A stretch of 12,071 nt of DNA. Source: a bacterium (GTDB taxonomy: Bacteria > Blakebacterota > Blakebacteria > Blakebacterales > Blakebacteraceae). The notes under the pieces are model-generated. The model was not told the DNA's origin. It saw only the letters and a program-made list of their open reading frames with translations, and did no database searches. The stretch is from positions 1 through 12,071 of the forward strand of contig JALGVQ010000097.1 in assembly GCA_025774615.1 (NCBI GenBank), given 5' to 3'. The translations under genes and the position numbers were made by a program. Below, piece after piece: positions 1-10,150 of this stretch. The first letter of the stretch is position 1. The number at the start of each line of letters is the position of its first letter.

Positions 1-423
1 GACGCCGGATCGGTGATCGGTGGTGAGGGCAACGGCGGCGTGATCCATCCCGATGTGGTCCATGCCCGCGATGCGCTGACGGGGTCCTTCCTCATACTCT
101 CGGCCATGGCGATGAGCGGGCTCGATCTGCCCGCTCTACGATCCGCTATCCCATCTTACGCGATGAGAAAACTGAAATACGCGCTTCCCGCGGGAGGTGC
201 GGCGGCACTCGGAGAACAGCTGGCAGCGCTCCCCGGCCGGTTCACTGACGCGGTGGTGGATGATCGGGATGGAGTGCGTCTCGACTGGCCCGAACGATGG
301 GTGCACATCAGGCCCAGCAACACCGAACCTGTAGTCAGGCTCATCTCGGAGGCTCCCCGGGAGGCAGAAGCCCTCCGGCAGGCTGATGAGGTCGCCTCGA
401 TCCTGGATCTGACCGATGAGTAA
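1..423 (+). CDS. glmM: Phosphohexomutase C-terminal part (phosphoglucosamine mutase / phosphomannomutase type), 5' truncated
   Basis: The frame is open from base 1, so the N-terminal catalytic domains lie outside the window; 140 residues are visible. What is visible is the sugar-binding loop GGEGNGGVI near the start and the domain-4 phosphate-binding loop RPSNTEP followed by VVRLISEAP. These are hallmarks of the alpha-D-phosphohexomutase family, and the GEGNGGVI and RPSNTEP variants resemble the archaeal/Bacteroidetes-type phosphoglucosamine mutases. Family enzymes move phosphate between C1 and C6 of a hexose phosphate in the cytoplasm; glucosamine phosphate would feed UDP-GlcNAc and cell-envelope synthesis. 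The active-site serine is not in view, so substrate choice (glucosamine, mannose or glucose phosphate) cannot be settled and the symbol is a best guess. The stop overlaps the next gene's start by 8 nt, suggesting translational coupling. Confidence 0.85.
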   Translation, partial: DAGSVIGGEGNGGVIHPDVVHARDALTGSFLILSAMAMSGLDLPALRSAIPSYAMRKLKYALPAGGAAALGEQLAALPGRFTDAVVDDRDGVRLDWPERWVHIRPSNTEPVVRLISEAPREAEALRQADEVASILDLTDE

Positions 424-2029
424 CGCACCCGGGCAGCAGAGCGAATCTTCTCTGAAGGATGAGACCGTACTGGTCGCGCTCGAGCATCCTGACATACGTG
501 AGGCGCTTGATCGCGTGAGCGAGCGAACCCGGATCGTGGTGCTCGACTCGATCGACCAGATAACCCGGTACGCCGGATCGAGGCCGGTAGACCTGGTCGT
601 GCTTCCCGATTCTGTCGATGGCGCGCTCGTGGAGGGACTGAAGACCGCATTGCGCGCCAATAGCGCCCACGGCCAGATCCTTCAATTGGCCCCGGGCGGG
701 TTTGCCCGGCTGACAGAGCAGGGGCCATGGCAGGGACCGGATGCTCCCCCTCCACCTCCGGAGGATGCTGTCTCGGAGATCATCACCACCCTGCTGGAGT
801 TCTCACGCGTCGGCAGGCTCACCGGACTGCTGGGCGAGAGCGAGGCTATAGCGAGTGTGCTTCGGACGGTTTCGAGGATCGCGCAGACAGACGTTCCGAT
901 CCTGATCAGAGGTCCATCAGGAACGGGGAAGGAACTGATCGCCCGCGGCATCCACCGGGCGAGCCCCCGCTCGGAGAACCCGTTCGTCGCGGTGAACACT
1001 CCCGGTCTCTCCGAATCGCTCATCGAATCGGAACTCTTCGGACACGAGAAGGGAGCCTTCACCGGCGCGATGAGTCGCAAGGAGGGGGTATTCGAAGCGG
1101 CGGGTGAAGGCACGATCTTTCTCGACGAGATCGGGGATCTGTCAAGGAACCTGCAGTCGAAGCTCCTGCGGGTTCTGGAAGAGCACGAATTCCATCGGGT
1201 CGGTGGAACCGGACCGATCCGTGTAAGAGCGAGGGTGCTGGCAGCCACAAACGTGGACCTGGAACGAGCGGTCGAAGATGGGGAATTCCGGGAGGATCTC
1301 TACTATCGTCTCCAGGTGGTGACGATAGAAATGCCGCCGCTCAGAGACCGCGCCGAAGATGTCGTGCCTCTGTTGGCGCACTTCGTTACCCGGGTGTGCA
1401 CCGAACGCGGGACGACCTTTGTCGGATTCACCGATGACGCCATCGGATATCTGCAGAGATACGCATGGCCGGGGAACGTGAGAGAACTTCGCAACCTGGT
1501 CGAACAGGTTGTGCTGCTGCATCCGGGCGAGAAGATAACCGCCACTCTTCTCATGAGGATCTTCGAAGAGCGAACGCGCGACCCGCGGAACCTGCCGACC
1601 TCGACCGGCAAGACGCCCGACCAGGTGGAACGGGAACTCATCTTCCAGTCGCTCCAGGCACTTCGGGAGGAAGTGGCGGATCTGCGGGCGAGTGTGGAAG
1701 TGATGAACCTTGCCGGACGTTCGGGTGGGGAACTGGACCGGTTCGCTGTGCGTGAGAGCGGCAGGGACGCTTCCGGATCCCTGCACGGTTCGGTGACGGT
1801 CCCGCTCGGCGCTACTCTGGAAGAGATCGAAGTGCGGCTCATCGAGGAGACACTGCGCCGGCTCAAGGGTGACAAGAAGAAGACAGCCGAGGCCCTCGGT
1901 ATCGGTTTGCGTACCCTCTACCGTCGTCTGGAGCCGTCGTCTGGAGAAGATGGAGGAGGAGAGTGTATCCCACCATGGAGAGAATTCCAGGGAACCAGGT
2001 GGAGAGAGCGGACGTTAGTTACAGAGTAG
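416..2029 (+). CDS. Sigma-54-dependent activator with degenerate receiver, AAA+ and Fis-type HTH
   Basis: The 537-residue protein has the NtrC-family layout. Residues about 16-100 look like a receiver domain but lack the usual phosphorylation residues (DD becomes L22-E23, the acceptor Asp is P64, the switch Thr is A92). A proline run (111-115) links it to the AAA+ domain: Walker A GPSGTGKE (166-173), sigma-54-contacting GAFTGA (213-218), Walker B TIFLDE (233-238), ATN sensor I (277-279), arginine-finger region FREDLYYRL (291-299), and WPGNVREL sensor II (351-358). A helical linker with ERELIF and LREEVADL (about 415-435) leads to a Fis-type helix-turn-helix, with KKTAEALGIGLRTLYRRL at about 488-505. 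Such proteins bind upstream enhancers and use ATP to open sigma-54 promoters. The 32-residue tail after YRRLE is altered by a 13-bp tandem duplication. The start ATG overlaps the preceding stop. The target genes are unknown. Confidence 0.93.
   Translation: MSNAPGQQSESSLKDETVLVALEHPDIREALDRVSERTRIVVLDSIDQITRYAGSRPVDLVVLPDSVDGALVEGLKTALRANSAHGQILQLAPGGFARLTEQGPWQGPDAPPPPPEDAVSEIITTLLEFSRVGRLTGLLGESEAIASVLRTVSRIAQTDVPILIRGPSGTGKELIARGIHRASPRSENPFVAVNTPGLSESLIESELFGHEKGAFTGAMSRKEGVFEAAGEGTIFLDEIGDLSRNLQSKLLRVLEEHEFHRVGGTGPIRVRARVLAATNVDLERAVEDGEFREDLYYRLQVVTIEMPPLRDRAEDVVPLLAHFVTRVCTERGTTFVGFTDDAIGYLQRYAWPGNVRELRNLVEQVVLLHPGEKITATLLMRIFEERTRDPRNLPTSTGKTPDQVERELIFQSLQALREEVADLRASVEVMNLAGRSGGELDRFAVRESGRDASGSLHGSVTVPLGATLEEIEVRLIEETLRRLKGDKKKTAEALGIGLRTLYRRLEPSSGEDGGGECIPPWREFQGTRWRERTLVTE
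1921..1946 (+). repeat. Perfect 13-bp tandem duplication causing a frameshift in the activator's 3' end
   Basis: The unit CCGTCGTCTGGAG occurs twice back to back (1921-1933 and 1934-1946). Since 13 is not a multiple of 3, the second copy changes the frame. As it stands the protein reads LYRRLE-PSSGEDGGG and stops at 2027-2029. With one copy removed it would read LYRRLE-KMEEES and stop at the TAG at 2016-2018. The latter continues the last Fis helix in a more natural way (families usually read RRLEK or RKLKE at this point). The duplication is directly visible; that it is recent, and that the one-copy form is ancestral, is inference. An assembly artefact is possible. Confidence 0.9.
1991..2017 (+). 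promoter_or_regulatory. Candidate ECF/RpoE-type promoter for htrA
   Basis: A -35-like GGAAC (1991-1995) is followed after 17 nt by CGTTA (2013-2017). GGAAC with a CGT/TCT -10 at 16-17 nt is the pattern of promoters used by ECF sigma factors of the RpoE type, which classically drive htrA/degP genes. The element lies at the end of the activator's coding region, about 80-105 nt before the htrA start. It is the weakest of the three similar sites at its -10, and no transcript data are available. Confidence 0.35.
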
Positions 2030-2095: not shown

Positions 2096-3757
2096 ATGAA
2101 GAACAGTGCGATAACAAGATGGACAGTTCTTTCGGTGGTTCTGATCGTCGGTATAGTGGCCGGCCTGACTCTTGCCGGAACGTGGGAGAGGCCACCATCT
2201 GAACGTTCGACCGAGCTTGCCCTGCAAGCGCTGGATGCGCCGGTCGCGATCGTTCCTGCCGCCCTTATCGAAATACCAGAGGAATATCCTGGTGAAACAG
2301 TAGCCGTGCAGCAGGGGGGCCTTCCCTCCCTTCGGGAAGCGGCAGCCAGCGTACGGCCCGGTGTCGTCTCAGTACAGGTCACTGGATTGCGAGCAGGGAG
2401 TACCAGCAGTTTCCAGATGCCCGAAAACCTGCCTGATGGGATGCAGGAGTTCTTCCGCGACAGGATCCCGCAGAATGACCCACCCCGGGAGGTCAACTGG
2501 GGAGGATCGGGATTCATCTTCTCCCCCGACGGATACATCATCACCAACAATCATGTGGTTGAGGGCGCGACCGATGTCGAAGTGATCCTTCCCGATAAAC
2601 GCCGGTATGATGCCGAGGTCATCGGTGCCGACGAGCTCACCGACGTGGCTGTCCTCAAAATCGTGACCAACGAGAATCTGCATGCGGTATCGCTCGGCGA
2701 TTCTGACCACCTCATGATCGGTGACTGGGTGCTGGCGATCGGAAATCCCCTCACCTTCGACTTCACGGTCACCGCGGGAATTGTGAGCGCCCTGGGACGG
2801 ACCCTCGATGTCGGCCCGAGGGATGGACTGGTGCGAACCGGTATCCAGAATTTCATCCAGACCGACGCAGTCATCAACCGGGGCAACTCGGGAGGACCGC
2901 TCGTTGATCTGAGCGGCAGTGTTGTCGGGATCAACACCGCGATCGGCTCGAATTCCGGTTTCTACGAAGGTTACGGATTCGCGATCCCCATCAACCTGGC
3001 TCGTTCTGTTGCACGCGACCTGATCGAATACGGACGCGTGAGACGCTCCTGGCTGGGACTGACCTTCAATATCATCGAGGCGCCGGAGGCGCGGGCGCGC
3101 AGCCTGCCCGACAACCCGCCGATCGGCGCACTGGTGGCGAGTATCACACCTGGAGGATCAGCCGATGAGAGCGGGATCAGGACAAACGATATCATCCTCG
3201 AGATCGATGGTGTACTCATCGACAACTCGGGGAAACTGCAGACACTGGTCAGCACCCTGAAACCGGGAACCACCATTGAGATGATCATCTACCGGGGTGG
3301 ATCGAGCCGCCGGGCGGGGCGCCGTATCACGCTTGATGTCATCCTGCAGGAGCGGCCCGATAATATCTCCGGTCAGCCGGTACCATCAGAGGATGATCCG
3401 GTAGAGGAGCTGGAGCTGGAACCTGAGGATGAGATGACGCCCGATCGACTGGGGCTCACTGTCTCAGCGCTTGAGCGTGACAGGGCAGGCGAGATCGGAT
3501 TCGATGGCCGGGGGGTCTGGGTCACATCCGTGGAGCGGTCCGGTCCCATGTATGACGCGTGGCTCCGCACGTATGGCGCGGTGCTCCGCGGGAGTGTGGT
3601 CATCGTCGAACTCGATGGAGAAGAAGTGAGAAACATGCGCGACTACGAGCGGATACTGGCCGAACTCACATCGGGCTCCTATGTGATTATGCGGATATGG
3701 CTTCCGAGACGACCTGAAGGGCAGGAGTTCGTGCCGTTGACGGTTCAAGTCCGCTGA
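2096..3757 (+). CDS. htrA: HtrA/DegP-family periplasmic serine protease with two PDZ domains
   Basis: The 553-residue protein is an envelope quality-control protease that degrades misfolded periplasmic or outer-membrane proteins. A hydrophobic N-terminal segment (about 9-28) has no clear signal-peptidase site and could be a signal peptide or a membrane anchor as in DegS. The trypsin-like domain carries a full catalytic triad: H153 in TNNHVVEG, D183 in ELTDVAVLK, S265 in NRGNSGGPL. PDZ1 spans about 328-425 and starts at SWLGLTF. An acidic linker (about 441-457) precedes a more divergent PDZ2 (about 461-545). I chose the ATG at 2096 because GGAG at 2085-2088 sits 7 nt upstream and it gives a normal N-terminus; a longer frame from TTG at 2036 lacks such a signal. 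The gene is probably transcribed from its own promoter in the short gap upstream. Confidence 0.95.
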   Translation: MKNSAITRWTVLSVVLIVGIVAGLTLAGTWERPPSERSTELALQALDAPVAIVPAALIEIPEEYPGETVAVQQGGLPSLREAAASVRPGVVSVQVTGLRAGSTSSFQMPENLPDGMQEFFRDRIPQNDPPREVNWGGSGFIFSPDGYIITNNHVVEGATDVEVILPDKRRYDAEVIGADELTDVAVLKIVTNENLHAVSLGDSDHLMIGDWVLAIGNPLTFDFTVTAGIVSALGRTLDVGPRDGLVRTGIQNFIQTDAVINRGNSGGPLVDLSGSVVGINTAIGSNSGFYEGYGFAIPINLARSVARDLIEYGRVRRSWLGLTFNIIEAPEARARSLPDNPPIGALVASITPGGSADESGIRTNDIILEIDGVLIDNSGKLQTLVSTLKPGTTIEMIIYRGGSSRRAGRRITLDVILQERPDNISGQPVPSEDDPVEELELEPEDEMTPDRLGLTVSALERDRAGEIGFDGRGVWVTSVERSGPMYDAWLRTYGAVLRGSVVIVELDGEEVRNMRDYERILAELTSGSYVIMRIWLPRRPEGQEFVPLTVQVR

Positions 3758-3936: not shown

Positions 3937-4380
3937 ATGCGTCGCATCATGAGCCAGACCGGCATGAATTACATCCAGATGCTGCTGGTCCTTGTTTTGG
4001 CCGGTATCCTCGGCGCCCTCGTGGTTCCCTATCTCACGAACCAGGAGAAAGAGGAGATCAAAGCGCTCAGCCGCGAGCGGGCTGGCAGGATCGTCGATGC
4101 CGAGTTCACCTACTACCGGACGCACGGGGAGTTCACCATGGAGATAGACTCCCTGAAGACAGTCCTCCGCGATCCGGATGCGTATGTCGATCCGCTGAAC
4201 GAGCAGGGATTCCAGATCGGTGTAGTCAACCAGGGTCAGGACTTTTCCATCCAGTCATACGCTGATGCCACGATCCTCATTGTCACCGAAGACCGCTGGG
4301 AGGATCTCCAGCAGGCACGCCTTGCCTGGAGGGATTACCAGGAAGAGATCCGACTGCAGTCACGAGGCGGCGGCAGGTAA
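3937..4380 (+). CDS. Type IV pilin/pseudopilin-like protein
   Basis: The 147-residue protein has a short basic leader MRRIMSQTG, then MNYIQMLLVLVLAGILGALVVP, a single hydrophobic helix starting right after the Gly, as in prepilins cut by PilD-type peptidase. Counting the residue after G9 as +1, Pro31 falls at +22, the position conserved in major pilins and pseudopilins. The usual Glu at +5 is Gln14. After the helix comes a soluble region with AEFTYYRTHGEFT and a DSLK segment, which resembles the pilin pattern of a Tyr-Tyr pair, a turn and a short strand (about 53-75). The C-terminus is charged and helical. The start is supported by AAGGAG 6 nt upstream. It would act in the inner membrane/periplasm, possibly as a minor pseudopilin. 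No pilus or secretion gene is in view, so a stand-alone anchored protein is the alternative. Confidence 0.6.
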   Translation: MRRIMSQTGMNYIQMLLVLVLAGILGALVVPYLTNQEKEEIKALSRERAGRIVDAEFTYYRTHGEFTMEIDSLKTVLRDPDAYVDPLNEQGFQIGVVNQGQDFSIQSYADATILIVTEDRWEDLQQARLAWRDYQEEIRLQSRGGGR

Positions 4381-4395
4381 CACGGTATAGATCGA

Positions 4396-4704
4396 ATGCC
4401 CACATATGAATACGAGTGCCTGGTCAAGGGGCACCGTTTTGAAGAATTCCAGAACATCACTGATTCTCCGCTGACCTCCTGTCCGGAGTGTGGCGGTGAG
4501 GTGCGTCGCCTCATCAGCGGCGGAGCCGGGTTCCTGTTCAGGGGATCCGGTTTTTACGAGACCGATCATCGCAGTGAATCGTATAAGAAAGCCGAGAAGG
4601 CGGATCAGGCAGCCGCCAGCGGATCGGTATCCTCTTCTGACTCGAAGAGTGGATCCTCCGGGAAGAAGAGCGCGCAGAGTGAGACCAAGGGCGGCACGAA
4701 ATGA
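4396..4704 (+). CDS. FmdB-family zinc-ribbon protein, one cysteine missing
   Basis: The 102-residue protein opens with MPTYEYEC and GHRFEEFQ, the signature of the FmdB/CxxC-CxxC-SSSS small zinc-ribbon family, followed by CPECGGEVRRLISGG (C29 and C32) and a serine/lysine-rich low-complexity tail (about 64-102). In the family the first knuckle is normally CxxC; here it reads C8-L-V-K11, so the second ligand is absent, unless H13 substitutes. FmdB was named as a putative regulator of formamidase genes, but the role of most members is unknown; nothing here suggests a specific target. It is 15 nt downstream of the pilin-like gene and overlaps the next gene by 4 nt (ATGA), so the three probably share a transcript. 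There is no strong Shine-Dalgarno. Confidence 0.88.
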   Translation: MPTYEYECLVKGHRFEEFQNITDSPLTSCPECGGEVRRLISGGAGFLFRGSGFYETDHRSESYKKAEKADQAAASGSVSSSDSKSGSSGKKSAQSETKGGTK

Positions 4705-5081
4705 TCAGGATCATACTCCTTGTGTTCATCACACTTCTCATCGTACCAGGTTGCGGGGGGAATGGTGACTGGGAGTCCCGGTGGGAGGAGACTATCACCG
4801 GAACGCAACTCACCGCTGAAGAGCTGATCGTTCGAGTCGAGGATTTCCTGGCTGAAGAGCCTCCGCTCAAGTACGCCAGCGAAGCCCGTTTCACGATCGG
4901 ATTCACCTGGGCGGAAGCTCTCAAGAAGTATGATGAAGCCCGCAGGTATTTTGAGGAACTGCTCGAGGAAGATCCTGATTGTGAATGGGCGGATGACGCG
5001 GAGTGGATGCTGGAGAACATGGAGAAGGATATGGAAGATATCCTTCCCCTGCTTGGTCTGCAGGAACCACCTCCCCGTTGA
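4701..5081 (+). CDS. Small lipoprotein with a TPR-like helical domain
   Basis: This 126-residue protein has a hydrophobic N-terminus ending in a lipobox (LIVPGC, lipidated Cys18), so it is a predicted lipoprotein. Residues about 55-115 hold helical repeats of the TPR_6 kind: YASEARFTIGFTWAEAL, YDEARRYFEELLEEDP, then EWADDAEWMLENM. The pattern matches the TPRs in CpoB and BamD, also present in this window, but there is only about one and a half repeats. The mature protein is strongly acidic. The start overlaps the preceding stop by 4 nt (ATGA). I cannot assign a function; a small adaptor on an envelope complex is a guess. The next gene is 329 nt away, so this likely ends the transcript. Confidence 0.8.
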   Translation: MIRIILLVFITLLIVPGCGGNGDWESRWEETITGTQLTAEELIVRVEDFLAEEPPLKYASEARFTIGFTWAEALKKYDEARRYFEELLEEDPDCEWADDAEWMLENMEKDMEDILPLLGLQEPPPR

Positions 5082-5230
5082 AAAGGAAATGCCCCCCACC
5101 ACTTCACGCGGTAGAGGGCACGTCCACGATCTCAGGGAACAACCGGTGGAGAAAGGCAGCGCCTCTCCTGTTGAAGGGTAAGGGATTTTATGGGCGCCAG
5201 CTTCATTTTATCGTCGCTGCCGTAAACAGA

Positions 5231-5256
5231 GGAACACCATCTGGTGTTAATCGTCT
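5231..5256 (+). promoter_or_regulatory. Candidate ECF/RpoE-type promoter for the envelope operon
   Basis: GGAAC (5231-5235) is followed after 16 nt by CGTCT (5252-5256), with TTAATCGTCT at 5247-5256 identical to the -10 region upstream of the pilin-like gene. It is the best -35 match of the three candidates in the window. The spacer contains a palindrome (5233-5248), a possible repressor site. It would drive the operon starting at 5411, which encodes several outer-membrane assembly and surface proteins, typical targets of envelope-stress sigma factors. Confidence 0.45.
5233..5248. promoter_or_regulatory. Perfect 16-bp palindrome, possible operator
   Basis: AACACCA-TC-TGGTGTT has 7-bp perfect arms with a 2-nt centre. 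It overlaps the 3' part of the -35-like GGAAC and fills the spacer of the candidate promoter, a typical position for a dimeric repressor. The loop is too short for a good RNA hairpin, so a DNA-binding dyad is more likely. No binding protein can be named. Confidence 0.4.
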
Positions 5257-5312
5257 ACGGGTCACGGCGGCGCATTCAGGAGCCGGGACCGACCCTCATC
5301 CAACGTATTGTA

Positions 5313-5335
5313 AACGGCCTTTCTCAGTGGCCGTT
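5313..5335 (+). other. Hairpin in the leader of the envelope operon
   Basis: AACGGCC and GGCCGTT form a perfect 7-bp stem around the loop TTTCTCAGT. No T-run follows on either strand close enough for an intrinsic terminator, so it is more likely a leader structure or chance. Confidence 0.35.
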
Positions 5336-5410
5336 CCCCGAACGATGTATGAGTGTGCGGGATCGGGGTAGAGAGGACAAGGTAAAAGGTTTGAGACGAC
5401 AGGACAGAGC

Positions 5411-6604
5411 ATGAGGAGAACAGCGCACAGGGCTGGACCCAATGCGGCCGGAGTCACCCTTCTGCTCACGCTTCTCCTGGTGATCGGCTGTTCCATCAAT
5501 TCCAACAACCCGGCCGGATTCGAGTTCACCGGCAGGGATCAGAGTTCCGTCCTCACCGATACACTTACCGTGACCGGTGCCGATACCAGCTGGTCAGTAC
5601 CCCTCCAGCTCAACTCGTCGATCCGTCTTTTTGTCGGAGCGTTCGAGGGATATGAATCTCTCTCGCTCATACAGTTCACCGATCTGCCGGCCGGTGCCGA
5701 GATCGTTGACGCGATCCTGATCGTGCGCGGTCACTCCGTCACCACCTCTGGCGACTCCACCGAAATAACCCTCGAGGTCAGTCCTGTTTCGTCGGCGTGG
5801 GATTCGACCTGGACCGGTGAGGATCGTGCGGGGCTCGCTCTGGGGAGCGCGGTCGCGCAGCGGACAATCCTCTACGACGCGGTCTCGGATACGGTGGGAT
5901 TCAGGCTTCCCGTTGATATGGTACAGGGATGGATCGATGACCCGGCTACTGCCGTGCGCGGTGTCGCGATATCAGCCGTATCGCCGGCGCCCTTCATGAT
6001 CAATTTCTATTCGAGTGAGGTCTCGGGCAGCACCGCGCAGAGTCAACCGCGACTGGTGATAACCTACGTACCGGCCGGGGAGAGCGGGAACAAAACTTCC
6101 ACAGTGACGGCTGAATACGATCTGAGCCTTCTCACCTTCGATTCCACGATAGAAAATGGTGAACTGTGGACAGGTCGAGGAGCCCCGTTCCGCACGCGGC
6201 TCACCTTCGATGTCTCCCACATCCCGCCGCAGGCGACCATCAACAGGGCCGTCCTGAAGATGGGAATACGATCCGAGTACACACTGGGCGCCCCCATCAC
6301 TGTTGCTGCCGCGCTCTCGCTCTACGATGAACCGTGGACGGTATCGGAGGGTGAGATCATCGATGAACTCTCACTCGGCTTTGCCGTTTCCATCGGTGAG
6401 TCGGACAGCAGCATGTCGATGGTCATCACCCCGACGGTGGCCTCCCATATCATCCTTGATGAACCTCTGATGCACATCCTCGTCGTGACATCGTACGAGA
6501 ACCTTTACGTGGGGCTGGTCCGGTTCTGGGACAGCAGCGCGTCACCGGAGTTGAGGGCCACGATCGAGTTGACCTACTCCCTTCCACCGGGGGATACGCC
6601 ATGA
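5411..6604 (+). CDS. Surface lipoprotein with two DNRLRE-like beta domains
   Basis: The 397-residue protein has a basic start, a hydrophobic stretch and a lipobox (LLVIGC, Cys27), so a lipidated, exported product is expected. The rest is beta-rich in two similar halves. The first (about 71-212) has SLIQFTDLPAGAEIVDAILIV, a Trp-containing ..SAWDSTWTGED segment, GWIDDPATAVRGVAI, then FYSSEVSGST and QPRLVITYVP. The second (about 235-390) repeats the order with RLTFDVSHIPPQATINRAVL and ends LRATIELTY. This matches the DNRLRE fold, found in secreted and surface proteins and often of carbohydrate-binding or adhesive character; the actual ligand is unknown. It is the first gene of the probable operon, overlapping the next by 4 nt. 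Confidence 0.75.
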   Translation: MRRTAHRAGPNAAGVTLLLTLLLVIGCSINSNNPAGFEFTGRDQSSVLTDTLTVTGADTSWSVPLQLNSSIRLFVGAFEGYESLSLIQFTDLPAGAEIVDAILIVRGHSVTTSGDSTEITLEVSPVSSAWDSTWTGEDRAGLALGSAVAQRTILYDAVSDTVGFRLPVDMVQGWIDDPATAVRGVAISAVSPAPFMINFYSSEVSGSTAQSQPRLVITYVPAGESGNKTSTVTAEYDLSLLTFDSTIENGELWTGRGAPFRTRLTFDVSHIPPQATINRAVLKMGIRSEYTLGAPITVAAALSLYDEPWTVSEGEIIDELSLGFAVSIGESDSSMSMVITPTVASHIILDEPLMHILVVTSYENLYVGLVRFWDSSASPELRATIELTYSLPPGDTP

Positions 6605-7872
6605 TCGCCCGGCTCCAGCACGGAATCGGAGCGGCGGCACTGGTGGCTCTCCTCGTCATCATGCAACCGGTGGACGTCTCGGCACAGACTGCTTTCGGTA
6701 TCAAGTGGTTCGGCGAGCTCAGGTCACCCGCGCCTCCCCGGACACTGGCGATCGGTGGAATATCGGCAGTGGCACCATGGGGCAGGGAGCCGGTGGTCCC
6801 GGGGCAGAGGAACCCGGCCCTCAATGCGTTCTCCGAAAGGGTTGTGTACGGGTTCGTGTGGGAACTGGGTAAACTTTCCGGATCATATGGAGGGGGAGAG
6901 GGCACCTTGTGGCAGAACGGTCCGCGCGTACTCGGCCTCGTGCTGCCGCTCGGTGGCGGTGTCGCGGTGAGCGCGAATCTCCACAGTCTCACATTCAATG
7001 AATTCGAAGTGCATACCGACAGCACCATGCCCGATGGCTCCGGCAAGATGTACCAGAATTACATCGGGACGGGTGGACTGAGCGAAGGATCGTTCTCCCT
7101 TGCATGGCGGCTTCCTTCAGGAGCGGTTGCCCTCGGCATTTCGACCGACCTGCTCTTCGGTTCTATCAAGCATGAATGGGCAGTGAACTTCGAGCCCTCC
7201 GGGTATGTCGATACCAGCGATCAACTGCACCGCCAGCACAGGGGTCGTCGCATGACCGCGGGTCTGCAGCTGCAGCCGTTTTCCTCACTCCGGATCGGGG
7301 CCGCTGTCAGTAACCGGGGCGAACTGAAGGTCAAGCACATCTATTCCACTGTGGGGAGCGAGAGCGATACGAGTGAAGGGAAGCTGCGACTTGGTGAAAC
7401 CATGGTCGTGGGAGCGGGGCTCTCTCTCACCGATAAATGGGCGGTCTACTTCGATTATCGCAGGGTGGGTTGGGACCGGGCCGAATGGATCGAAGAGCCG
7501 GTCTCACCTTCGGGATCGCCGGTAAGCGTCGCCGACATCGGACTCCTGACTGCTGAATCCGATATCGGGTTCGGCTTTGAGAGACGAACTCCACCGGTGG
7601 ACCAGCAACTCAGGTTCATCGACACGCTGCCACTTCGCGTCGGCGTCCGGTTGGGCACCTTCTATGCGCCCGACATCAGTGGTGGTGAAGTCAATAAATG
7701 GTACGGCACCCTGGGTACAGCGTTCAATATCGGCCGAGAGGGTCGTACCTGGGCAGACCTTACACTACAGTTCGGGCGCTATTCCACGAGTGGGGACGCC
7801 CACGAGTTCTTCTGGCGTGTACAGATAGGAATCACGGGAGCCGAGCGCTGGTTCCTGCCGCCTCAGAGGTAG
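6601..7872 (+). CDS. Outer-membrane beta-barrel protein (PorV/FadL-like), function unknown
   Basis: The 423-residue protein has an N-terminal signal peptide (cut probably after VSA, residue 28). The mature protein consists of alternating amphipathic strands with glycine- and aromatic-rich turns: PRVLGLVLPLGGGVAVSANL, SFSLAWRLPSGAVALGISTD, SSLRIGAAVSNRGELKV, KWAVYFDYRRVGWD, LPLRVGVRLGTFYAP and a final HEFFWRVQIGITGA. An early NPAL segment (about 77-80) within PGQRNPALNAF resembles the NPA motif of the PorV/PorQ/FadL-like barrels common in FCB bacteria. The last residue is Arg, not the usual aromatic BAM signal. The start overlaps the upstream stop by 4 nt and is preceded by GGGGGA (6589-6594). 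The co-transcribed lipoprotein may be its partner; what it transports or anchors is not visible. Confidence 0.75.
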   Translation: MIARLQHGIGAAALVALLVIMQPVDVSAQTAFGIKWFGELRSPAPPRTLAIGGISAVAPWGREPVVPGQRNPALNAFSERVVYGFVWELGKLSGSYGGGEGTLWQNGPRVLGLVLPLGGGVAVSANLHSLTFNEFEVHTDSTMPDGSGKMYQNYIGTGGLSEGSFSLAWRLPSGAVALGISTDLLFGSIKHEWAVNFEPSGYVDTSDQLHRQHRGRRMTAGLQLQPFSSLRIGAAVSNRGELKVKHIYSTVGSESDTSEGKLRLGETMVVGAGLSLTDKWAVYFDYRRVGWDRAEWIEEPVSPSGSPVSVADIGLLTAESDIGFGFERRTPPVDQQLRFIDTLPLRVGVRLGTFYAPDISGGEVNKWYGTLGTAFNIGREGRTWADLTLQFGRYSTSGDAHEFFWRVQIGITGAERWFLPPQR

Positions 7873-7910
7873 TTCCGGTCTCAGGCGGTACAGACGGAGG
7901 AGGAAGCAAG

Positions 7911-8678
7911 ATGCGTCAACGAGCCCCTATCCTGATACTTCTGGTGGTCGCGGCTGTTTCTGTGAGTGGTTGCGCGAGCGGCATGAGGTCGCTCATCGAC
8001 CAGCAGAACGTCCAGATCCAGGAGATGCAGGCACGTGTCGATCAGGTGAACCAGCAGGATGAAGCGGAAGCGCAGGAGCTTGAGGCGATCCGTCGTGACA
8101 TCTCCCAGATCGGCATGAAGGTCACTCAGACGGAGGAGATGATAGGCGACCTCTCCCGGAAGACCGAGAATGTCAGCACCCGCCTCTCCCTGCTGACAGA
8201 GGAAGTCACACGTATCAAGCAGGACCCCGTGGCGAGGCCACCGGTTACCGAACAGGGCGTCGTGCTCTTCGGGGAGGCACCGGCGGCGTCCTCAGGGAAC
8301 ACCAGGGCCATTTACGATAACGGTTTGCGACTCTATCACGGGGAGACTCCCCAGGAGACACGCGAGGCGATCGCCGAGTTCACCAGGGTTGTACAGGCTG
8401 ATCCCACCGGGGACTGGGCAGATAACGCCGAATACTGGATCGGTGAATGCTACTACAAGCTGGAGGAGTTCGATCCGGCTCTTGCCGCGTTCCAGCGGGT
8501 GTTCAACCACCAGGGCTCGAACAAGTTTGAGGACGCCCAGCTCAAGATCGGCATGACCTATCGGCTCATGGATCGCCGGACAGAGGCGATCGCCGCACTC
8601 CAGGAACTGATCCAGAAGTACCCGAACAGCCAGCACATCGAACTGGCTCGACAGATACTGGCTGAAATCGGAGGCTGA
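7911..8678 (+). CDS. cpoB: CpoB/YbgF-like TPR lipoprotein (Tol-Pal associated)
   Basis: From the ATG at 7911 the product has 255 residues; GGAGGAGG at 7896-7903 and the N-terminus MRQRAPILILLVVAAVSVSGC decide this start over a longer frame. It has a lipobox (VSGC, Cys21), a coiled-coil region (about 28-105, Gln/Glu-rich), a flexible linker, and three TPR units (about 132-255) with WADNAEYWIGECYYKL, FEDAQLKIGMTYRLM and the terminal YPNSQHIELARQIL. This is the architecture of CpoB (YbgF), which in E. coli coordinates Tol-Pal and peptidoglycan synthase PBP1B during outer-membrane constriction. E. coli CpoB is a soluble periplasmic protein, whereas this one is a predicted lipoprotein. No tol or pal gene is in view; it sits directly before the bamD-like gene. 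Confidence 0.82.
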   Translation: MRQRAPILILLVVAAVSVSGCASGMRSLIDQQNVQIQEMQARVDQVNQQDEAEAQELEAIRRDISQIGMKVTQTEEMIGDLSRKTENVSTRLSLLTEEVTRIKQDPVARPPVTEQGVVLFGEAPAASSGNTRAIYDNGLRLYHGETPQETREAIAEFTRVVQADPTGDWADNAEYWIGECYYKLEEFDPALAAFQRVFNHQGSNKFEDAQLKIGMTYRLMDRRTEAIAALQELIQKYPNSQHIELARQILAEIGG

Positions 8679-8711
8679 CGCATCAACAGTCTTACTGGAT
8701 ACGGTTACACG

Positions 8712-9530
8712 ATGCGGATATTTCGCACCATCCCGCGCTTGCTCGCTTTCGGAGTGATCCTCCTGGCCGCGGCCTGTTCGCATATTCCCAGGCCGCAGCC
8801 GGGAGCAGCCCCTGAAGATTACCTCCGATACGGATGGCGAATGCTGGAAGAGGGCAAAACGTTCCAGGCAAAGGAAATTTTCCAGGAACTGATCTATTCC
8901 GCCCCGGGAAGCGCCATCATCGATTCAATCCACTACGGACTGGCTGAGACCCACTTCGCCGAATCGAACTACTTCCTTGCCCTGAGCGAGTACAGCACGA
9001 TCGTGCGCTCTTTTCCACGGAGCGGACTCGTGGATGACGCCGCGTTCAAGGTCGGGATCTGCCACTGGGAACAGTCGAACAGCTACAAGCTCGATCAGAT
9101 GGAGACCCACGAAGCGCGCGAAGCGTTCCGGACCTTCCTCCTCGATTACCCGGCCAGTGATATCGTTGACGAGGTGGTGACCTACTACGAGATGGCCGAG
9201 GACAAACTCGCCCGGAAGCAGATCTATGAGGGAGAGACATATCTGAAACTGGGAACGGAGCGGGACCTTGTCTCTGCCACCATGGCCTTTCAGGAGGCCC
9301 TCGGCCGGTATCCGAACAGCTCCCATATCGATCTGGCTCTGTGGGGGTTGGGTGAGGTGTACTACAGGCAGGGCCGACATGACGACGCGCGCGCTGCATT
9401 CGGGGCTCTGGTAGCCAATTTCCCTGATTCGAAACGTCTCAAGAAGACACGGGCCCGACTGGAGGATCTCGGCGCATCCGAGGCTCTCTTCGCACCACCT
9501 CCACAACCACCATCTCCTCCGATATCATGA
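8712..9530 (+). CDS. bamD: BamD-like outer-membrane assembly lipoprotein
   Basis: The 272-residue protein has a signal and lipobox (LLAAAC, Cys22) followed by about five TPRs: YLRYGWRMLEEGKTFQAKEIF, ALSEYSTIVRSFPRSGLVDDA, then AFRTFLLDYPASDIVDEV, AMAFQEALGRYPNSSHIDLA and ARAAFGALVANFPDSKRLKK. The family and length fit BamD/YfiO, the essential lipoprotein that with BamA inserts beta-barrels in the outer membrane. The FRTFLLDYPASDIVDE element resembles the family's FxxFLxxYPxS motif. The C-terminus is a proline-rich tail (FAPPPQPPSPPIS). It lies 33 nt after the CpoB-like gene, whose TPRs are related, so another TPR lipoprotein cannot be wholly excluded. The next gene overlaps by 4 nt. Confidence 0.83.
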   Translation: MRIFRTIPRLLAFGVILLAAACSHIPRPQPGAAPEDYLRYGWRMLEEGKTFQAKEIFQELIYSAPGSAIIDSIHYGLAETHFAESNYFLALSEYSTIVRSFPRSGLVDDAAFKVGICHWEQSNSYKLDQMETHEAREAFRTFLLDYPASDIVDEVVTYYEMAEDKLARKQIYEGETYLKLGTERDLVSATMAFQEALGRYPNSSHIDLALWGLGEVYYRQGRHDDARAAFGALVANFPDSKRLKKTRARLEDLGASEALFAPPPQPPSPPIS

Positions 9531-10150
9531 AGATCGGCGTCTACGGCGGCGCCTTCGACCCACCGCATTCGGGCCATATCTTCATTGCCGGGGGAGTGCG
9601 TGAGGAACTCGCCCTCGATCGTGTCCTGTTCATCCCCTACACAACCGGACCCCACCGGCCGGCCGGCCCGATCGTCTCTTCCGAACACCGCCTGGAGATG
9701 CTCCGGCTCTGTCTCGGGGAGACCCCGGGATTCATGATCGATGACCGGGAGGTCCGCAGGGGTGGCGTCTCCTTCATGATCGATACCCTCCAGTCACTGC
9801 GGAGCGATCATCCTGACTCCGATCTCGTCCTTATCGTGGGGTCGGACCAGATCGGGATCTTCACTGAATGGAAGGAGTGGCGAACGATCCTCGAGCTGGC
9901 CGTTGTCGCGGTCATCGAGCGGCCCGGACACAGTTTGACCGATGGACCGGAGGAATTGCTCGAAAGCATGGTGACGATCTCCCTCCCGCCGCAGTCCCTC
10001 TCCTCCACCCAGGTCAGGGAACGGATCGCAGAGGGGACCGATATTCGGCAACTGGTGCCCGAGCCTGTCGTCCGGTACATTCAGAAACACGGACTCTACG
10101 GTTATTGTCAGGAGCCTGTCGGAGAAACAGACGAAGTGCCAAAGGACTGA
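9527..10150 (+). CDS. nadD: Nicotinate-nucleotide adenylyltransferase
   Basis: The 207-residue enzyme catalyses nicotinate mononucleotide + ATP to deamido-NAD + PPi in NAD synthesis, in the cytoplasm. Motifs: GVYGGAFDPPHSGH (4-17) containing the nucleotidyl-transferase HxGH, FIPYTTGPHRP (35-45) in place of the common PxxxxPHK, GSDQIGIFTEWKEW (105-118), and the C-terminal SSTQVR (159-164), equivalent to the ISSTxxR phosphate-binding motif, followed by a VPEPVVRYIQKHGLYG ending. Length is normal. There is no Shine-Dalgarno; the start overlaps the bamD-like stop by 4 nt (ATGA), so it is probably translated by coupling. Confidence 0.96.
   Translation: MKIGVYGGAFDPPHSGHIFIAGGVREELALDRVLFIPYTTGPHRPAGPIVSSEHRLEMLRLCLGETPGFMIDDREVRRGGVSFMIDTLQSLRSDHPDSDLVLIVGSDQIGIFTEWKEWRTILELAVVAVIERPGHSLTDGPEELLESMVTISLPPQSLSSTQVRERIAEGTDIRQLVPEPVVRYIQKHGLYGYCQEPVGETDEVPKD

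Follow-up and report, generated by a model that had tools for sequence, protein, structure and literature searches.

A 13-bp doubling at the end of a sigma-54 activator gene is probably an assembly error

The second copy of a 13-bp sequence that interrupts the end of a sigma-54 activator gene is most likely a mistake in the assembly of a draft metagenome-derived genome and absent from the organism itself. The window (the whole stretch of DNA analysed here, 12,071 nucleotides) carries CCGTCGTCTGGAG at positions 1921-1933 and again at 1934-1946 of the forward strand; the copies are 100% identical and exactly two in number, and the 26-mer that they form has a single site in the window at up to 3 mismatches, with 0 expected from shuffling. 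Under the assembly reading, the real gene would carry a single copy and end in an ordinary Fis-type C-terminus (LYRRLEKMEEES...), and the false doubling would have been introduced, for example, where a short overlap between two read paths or contig ends was entered twice. The assembly origin of the doubling at 1921-1946, and its having the same origin as other doublings of its class, are what we infer from its membership in that class.

The gene affected (416-2029, forward strand) encodes a protein with the architecture of NtrC-type sigma-54 activators (bEBPs). Pfam matches place an AAA+ domain at residues 138-305 (Sigma54_activat, PF00158, 3.4e-67), with the GAFTGA motif present in the translation, followed by an AAA lid at residues 310-389 (AAA_lid_14) and a C-terminal Fis-type helix-turn-helix (HTH_8, PF02954, 3.3e-11) at residues 467-506. 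The last of these corresponds to positions 1814-1933 of the forward strand and ends in ...LYRRLE; as it covers profile positions 1-40 of 42, the match ends precisely where the doubling starts. The doubling produces a +1 frameshift that turns LYRRLE-KMEEES... into LYRRLE-PSSGEDGGG..., such that the protein as assembled is frameshifted past residue 506 and, unlike known activators of this type, has an altered end to its Fis-type helix. With two copies the C-terminal end reads LYRRLEPSSGEDGGGECIPPWREFQGTRWRERTLVTE and the stop lies at 2027-2029, the shifted-frame tail occupying 1947-2029; with one copy the end reads LYRRLEKMEEESVSHHGENSREPGGESGR and the stop lies at 2016-2018. The 13-bp tandem duplication, both stops and both translations had been described correctly in the original prediction. 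No match to any RNA family was found in the window.

Comparison with relatives indicates which of the two frames is older. Four genomes of the phylum were compared, including that of the window (G000), a sister genome of the same genus (G001), a member of the same family (G003), and G002. The orthologue in G001 (L002, 77% identity) has one copy and ends in LYRRLEKLDEMKGLGEL, and that in G003 (L003, 68% identity) also has one copy and ends in LYRRLEKLEEYGPARR; no orthologue was found in G002 at the strict cut-off, and scans of the wider collection returned only distant sigma-54 activators of other phyla and no orthologues, with none among viral contigs. Both available orthologues (n = 2) read LYRRLEKL, and the one-copy reading of the window, LYRRLEKM, matches LYRRLEKLEEY of G003 codon for codon, with LEKMEEE aligning to LEKLEEY free of gaps. 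The single copy in both orthologues makes the one-copy reading, with its stop at 2016-2018, ancestral and the two-copy frame derived. Aligning related activators had been proposed as a check on the original prediction, and it returned a single copy in G001 and G003 and no two-copy tail. Judged from these alignments, the LYRRLE-PSSGEDGGG tail is a derived state private to this sequence, and it breaks the Fis-type helix at its conserved end. We also considered an alignment that pairs the second CTGGAG of the window with the second CTGGAT of L002 and leaves only 4 extra bases. We rejected it: two independent events would be required, and a single doubling is enough to explain both an exact repeat of 13 bp and a match to G003 without gaps.

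The altered tail also departs from the usual composition of such C-termini. We gathered 30 sigma-54 activator tails from the retrieved loci by a motif search for R-[RK]-L; many of these are close relatives of one another, so the counts that follow do not come from independent samples. The second position after this motif is K or R in 23 tails and Q in three, and P in the two-copy window alone, while the third is Y, H, L, M or F in 28 of 30 and S in the two-copy window. The one-copy reading, E-K-M, conforms to the common pattern of a basic residue followed by an aromatic or hydrophobic one.

One interpretation of the doubling is a slippage-type switch, in which the frame is shifted by two in-register copies and recovered when one is lost, so that the protein alternates between normal and altered tails. 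Contingency loci are known to consist of many short units. The window resembles phase-variable simple-sequence-repeat loci in that a change in copy number would alter the C-terminal frame; it differs from them in having two 13-bp units only rather than a multi-unit array, in the single, non-repeated copy found in G001 and G003 in place of an orthologous repeat of differing copy number, and in showing no variation, as a search of the window's own assembly for a second, one-copy variant found none. The phase-switch reading is therefore without support, and we regard it as extremely improbable; of the interpretation first offered, the derived nature of the two-copy frame stands and the slippage switch does not.

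The comparison that bears most directly on an assembly origin is with other doublings in the same genomes. We counted exact two-copy tandem doublings in about 810 kb of G000 (roughly a quarter of its 3.3 Mb), 245 kb of G001, and about 1.0 Mb of control genomes, leaving out longer arrays and discounting N-filled contigs. Doublings with a unit of at least 13 bp numbered 10 in G000, 8 in G001, and 3 in the controls (12.4, 32.7, and 3.0 per Mb, respectively). The excess over the controls had a binomial p of 0.0016 for G000 and G001 pooled and 0.024 for G000 alone, in a census made after the window doubling was already known. Given that the controls themselves carry about 3 doublings per Mb, some of those in G000 may be real. 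Among the 26 doublings of at least 10 bp in G000 and G001, boundary microhomology was 0-1 bp in 24, and the unit length was not a multiple of three in 17, which is exactly the expectation in the absence of selection. For units of at least 18 bp, perfect copies outnumbered aged ones 14 to 4 in G000 and G001, versus 1 to 5 in the controls (p = 0.015).

Several of these doublings split conserved genes. In G000, an exact 76-bp tandem doubling (L129 3814-3965, contig C27) falls in der, which encodes the ribosome-biogenesis GTPase Der/EngA, and the match to TIGR03594 is divided between two frames (positions 1-367 and 345-432); this split gene is the sole strong match in the genome, and der of G001, with a single copy where G000 has two, is open over the region. 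Model bacteria cannot live without Der, and a fixed frameshift in its gene is not easily squared with viability. In G001, an exact 40-bp doubling (L215 689-768) splits RecJ into 217-460 and 445-546, and an exact 61-bp doubling (L220 223-344) splits an LL-diaminopimelate-type aminotransferase into 82-165 and 165-382; each is the sole strong match in G001, both genes are open in G000, and RecJ is open in G003 too. A second exact 13-bp doubling in G000 (L147 3140-3165, contig C144) interrupts the frame of an SMC/Rad50-like ATPase (482 + 435 amino acids). Such doublings recur, and the conserved single-copy genes that they break are whole in relatives, as is characteristic of false doubling. Being private to one assembly, exact, free of microhomology, blind to frame, and situated in single-copy housekeeping genes, they look like false doublings, and false doubling at assembly joins fits the pattern better than phase variation does. 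That exact doublings of the same kind break single-copy housekeeping genes in G000 and its sister is what favors an assembly mistake over an on/off switch in the activator.

An alternative scenario is that the doubling is a real and recent tandem duplication, fixed or polymorphic in the lineage, which throws the final residues of the activator out of frame; DNA binding may then be weakened, or the change may be tolerated. Both copies are present in the assembled sequence, their identity is compatible with a young event, and the end of the gene appears tolerant of change, as tail length and sequence already vary between the orthologues; this gene-end position adds to the plausibility of a recent mutation. 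Like known short tandem-duplication frameshifts, the doubling is perfect and its length is not a multiple of three, so the frame shifts. Unlike them, however, it belongs to an overrepresented class, nearly devoid of boundary microhomology, whose members interrupt single-copy housekeeping genes; one of them is the Der-breaking doubling in the same assembly, which is not plausibly a living fixed state. Moreover, the change in the activator disrupts the Fis-type helix at its conserved basic and hydrophobic end. We consider a real mutation unlikely on balance, though it is a possibility to be taken seriously.

The excess in both members of the genus and the near absence of boundary microhomology could also be attributed to a genus-wide mutational process that generates exact doublings, such as fill-in and blunt joining of staggered breaks. 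Aged copies are few, however, and the single-copy housekeeping genes are each broken in one assembly alone, such that we give this process almost no credence. Ku (PF02735) had no match in G000 or G001, which are 82% and 85% complete; Ku-dependent joining is thus unsupported, and fill-in duplication of the non-homologous end-joining (NHEJ) type was set aside with the incompleteness of both genomes in mind. A broader proposal, that this small candidate phylum accumulates exact, microhomology-free doublings of 10-76 bp unusually often, housekeeping genes included, through a Ku-less repair or replication route, is only marginally less improbable.

Local assembly errors of a related kind are known from the curation of metagenome-assembled genomes, in which overlap sequence is duplicated at scaffold joins with Ns between the copies (PMC7111523). 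As in those cases, a short stretch would have been doubled where pieces meet, and wrong protein-coding sequences would result; the published copies are separated by Ns, whereas those in the window abut without Ns. No N gap with doubled flanks was found in G000 or G001; the two contain single internal N runs of 11 and 28 bases, respectively, along with several short contigs composed wholly of N. Weighing against an assembly mistake, the doubling is internal to its contig and without Ns, and a genuine frameshift would be more easily tolerated in its position, at the very 3′ end of the gene, than in der or recJ. Annotating the activator with a variable tail is unwarranted. The census suggests that the G000 and sister assemblies carry roughly 10-30 false doublings per Mb that make conserved genes look like frameshift pseudogenes, and other frameshifts called from G000 or G001 need the same check.

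Downstream of the activator lies a gene for an HtrA/DegP-family serine protease with a PDZ domain (2096-3757, forward strand; Pfam), whose start, placed at 2096, agrees with that of the sister (ATGAAGAA). It is preceded by a candidate ECF-sigma-type promoter, GGAAC-N17-CGTTA (1991-2017, forward strand), with the same spacing in the sister (L002 2946-2972); it resembles ECF-sigma promoters (GGAAC ... CGTT). Conservation of this candidate promoter in both members of the genus suggests that htrA is under envelope-stress control, independently of the upstream sigma-54 activator. The original prediction held that the doubling changes how far the coding region extends over this site, which is a weak point, as the second copy adds only 11 bases; the one-copy frame already overlaps the candidate promoter, its stop at 2018 lying inside the -10 element, so the overlap itself is independent of the doubling. 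In the sister (L002), the activator stop precedes the -35 element. One further GGAAC-N17-CGTTA occurs among all loci retrieved, at position 3223 of L193 in G000; we rejected it as a promoter, since it sits at a gene end, is aimed into a convergent gene, and looks like a chance occurrence. After htrA, positions 3937-10150 of the window hold an envelope-biogenesis cluster encoding a pilin-like protein, an FmdB-type zinc ribbon protein, a DNRLRE-domain protein, a BamG-like outer-membrane protein, CpoB/YbgF-like and BamD-like TPR lipoproteins, and a nicotinate-nucleotide adenylyltransferase.
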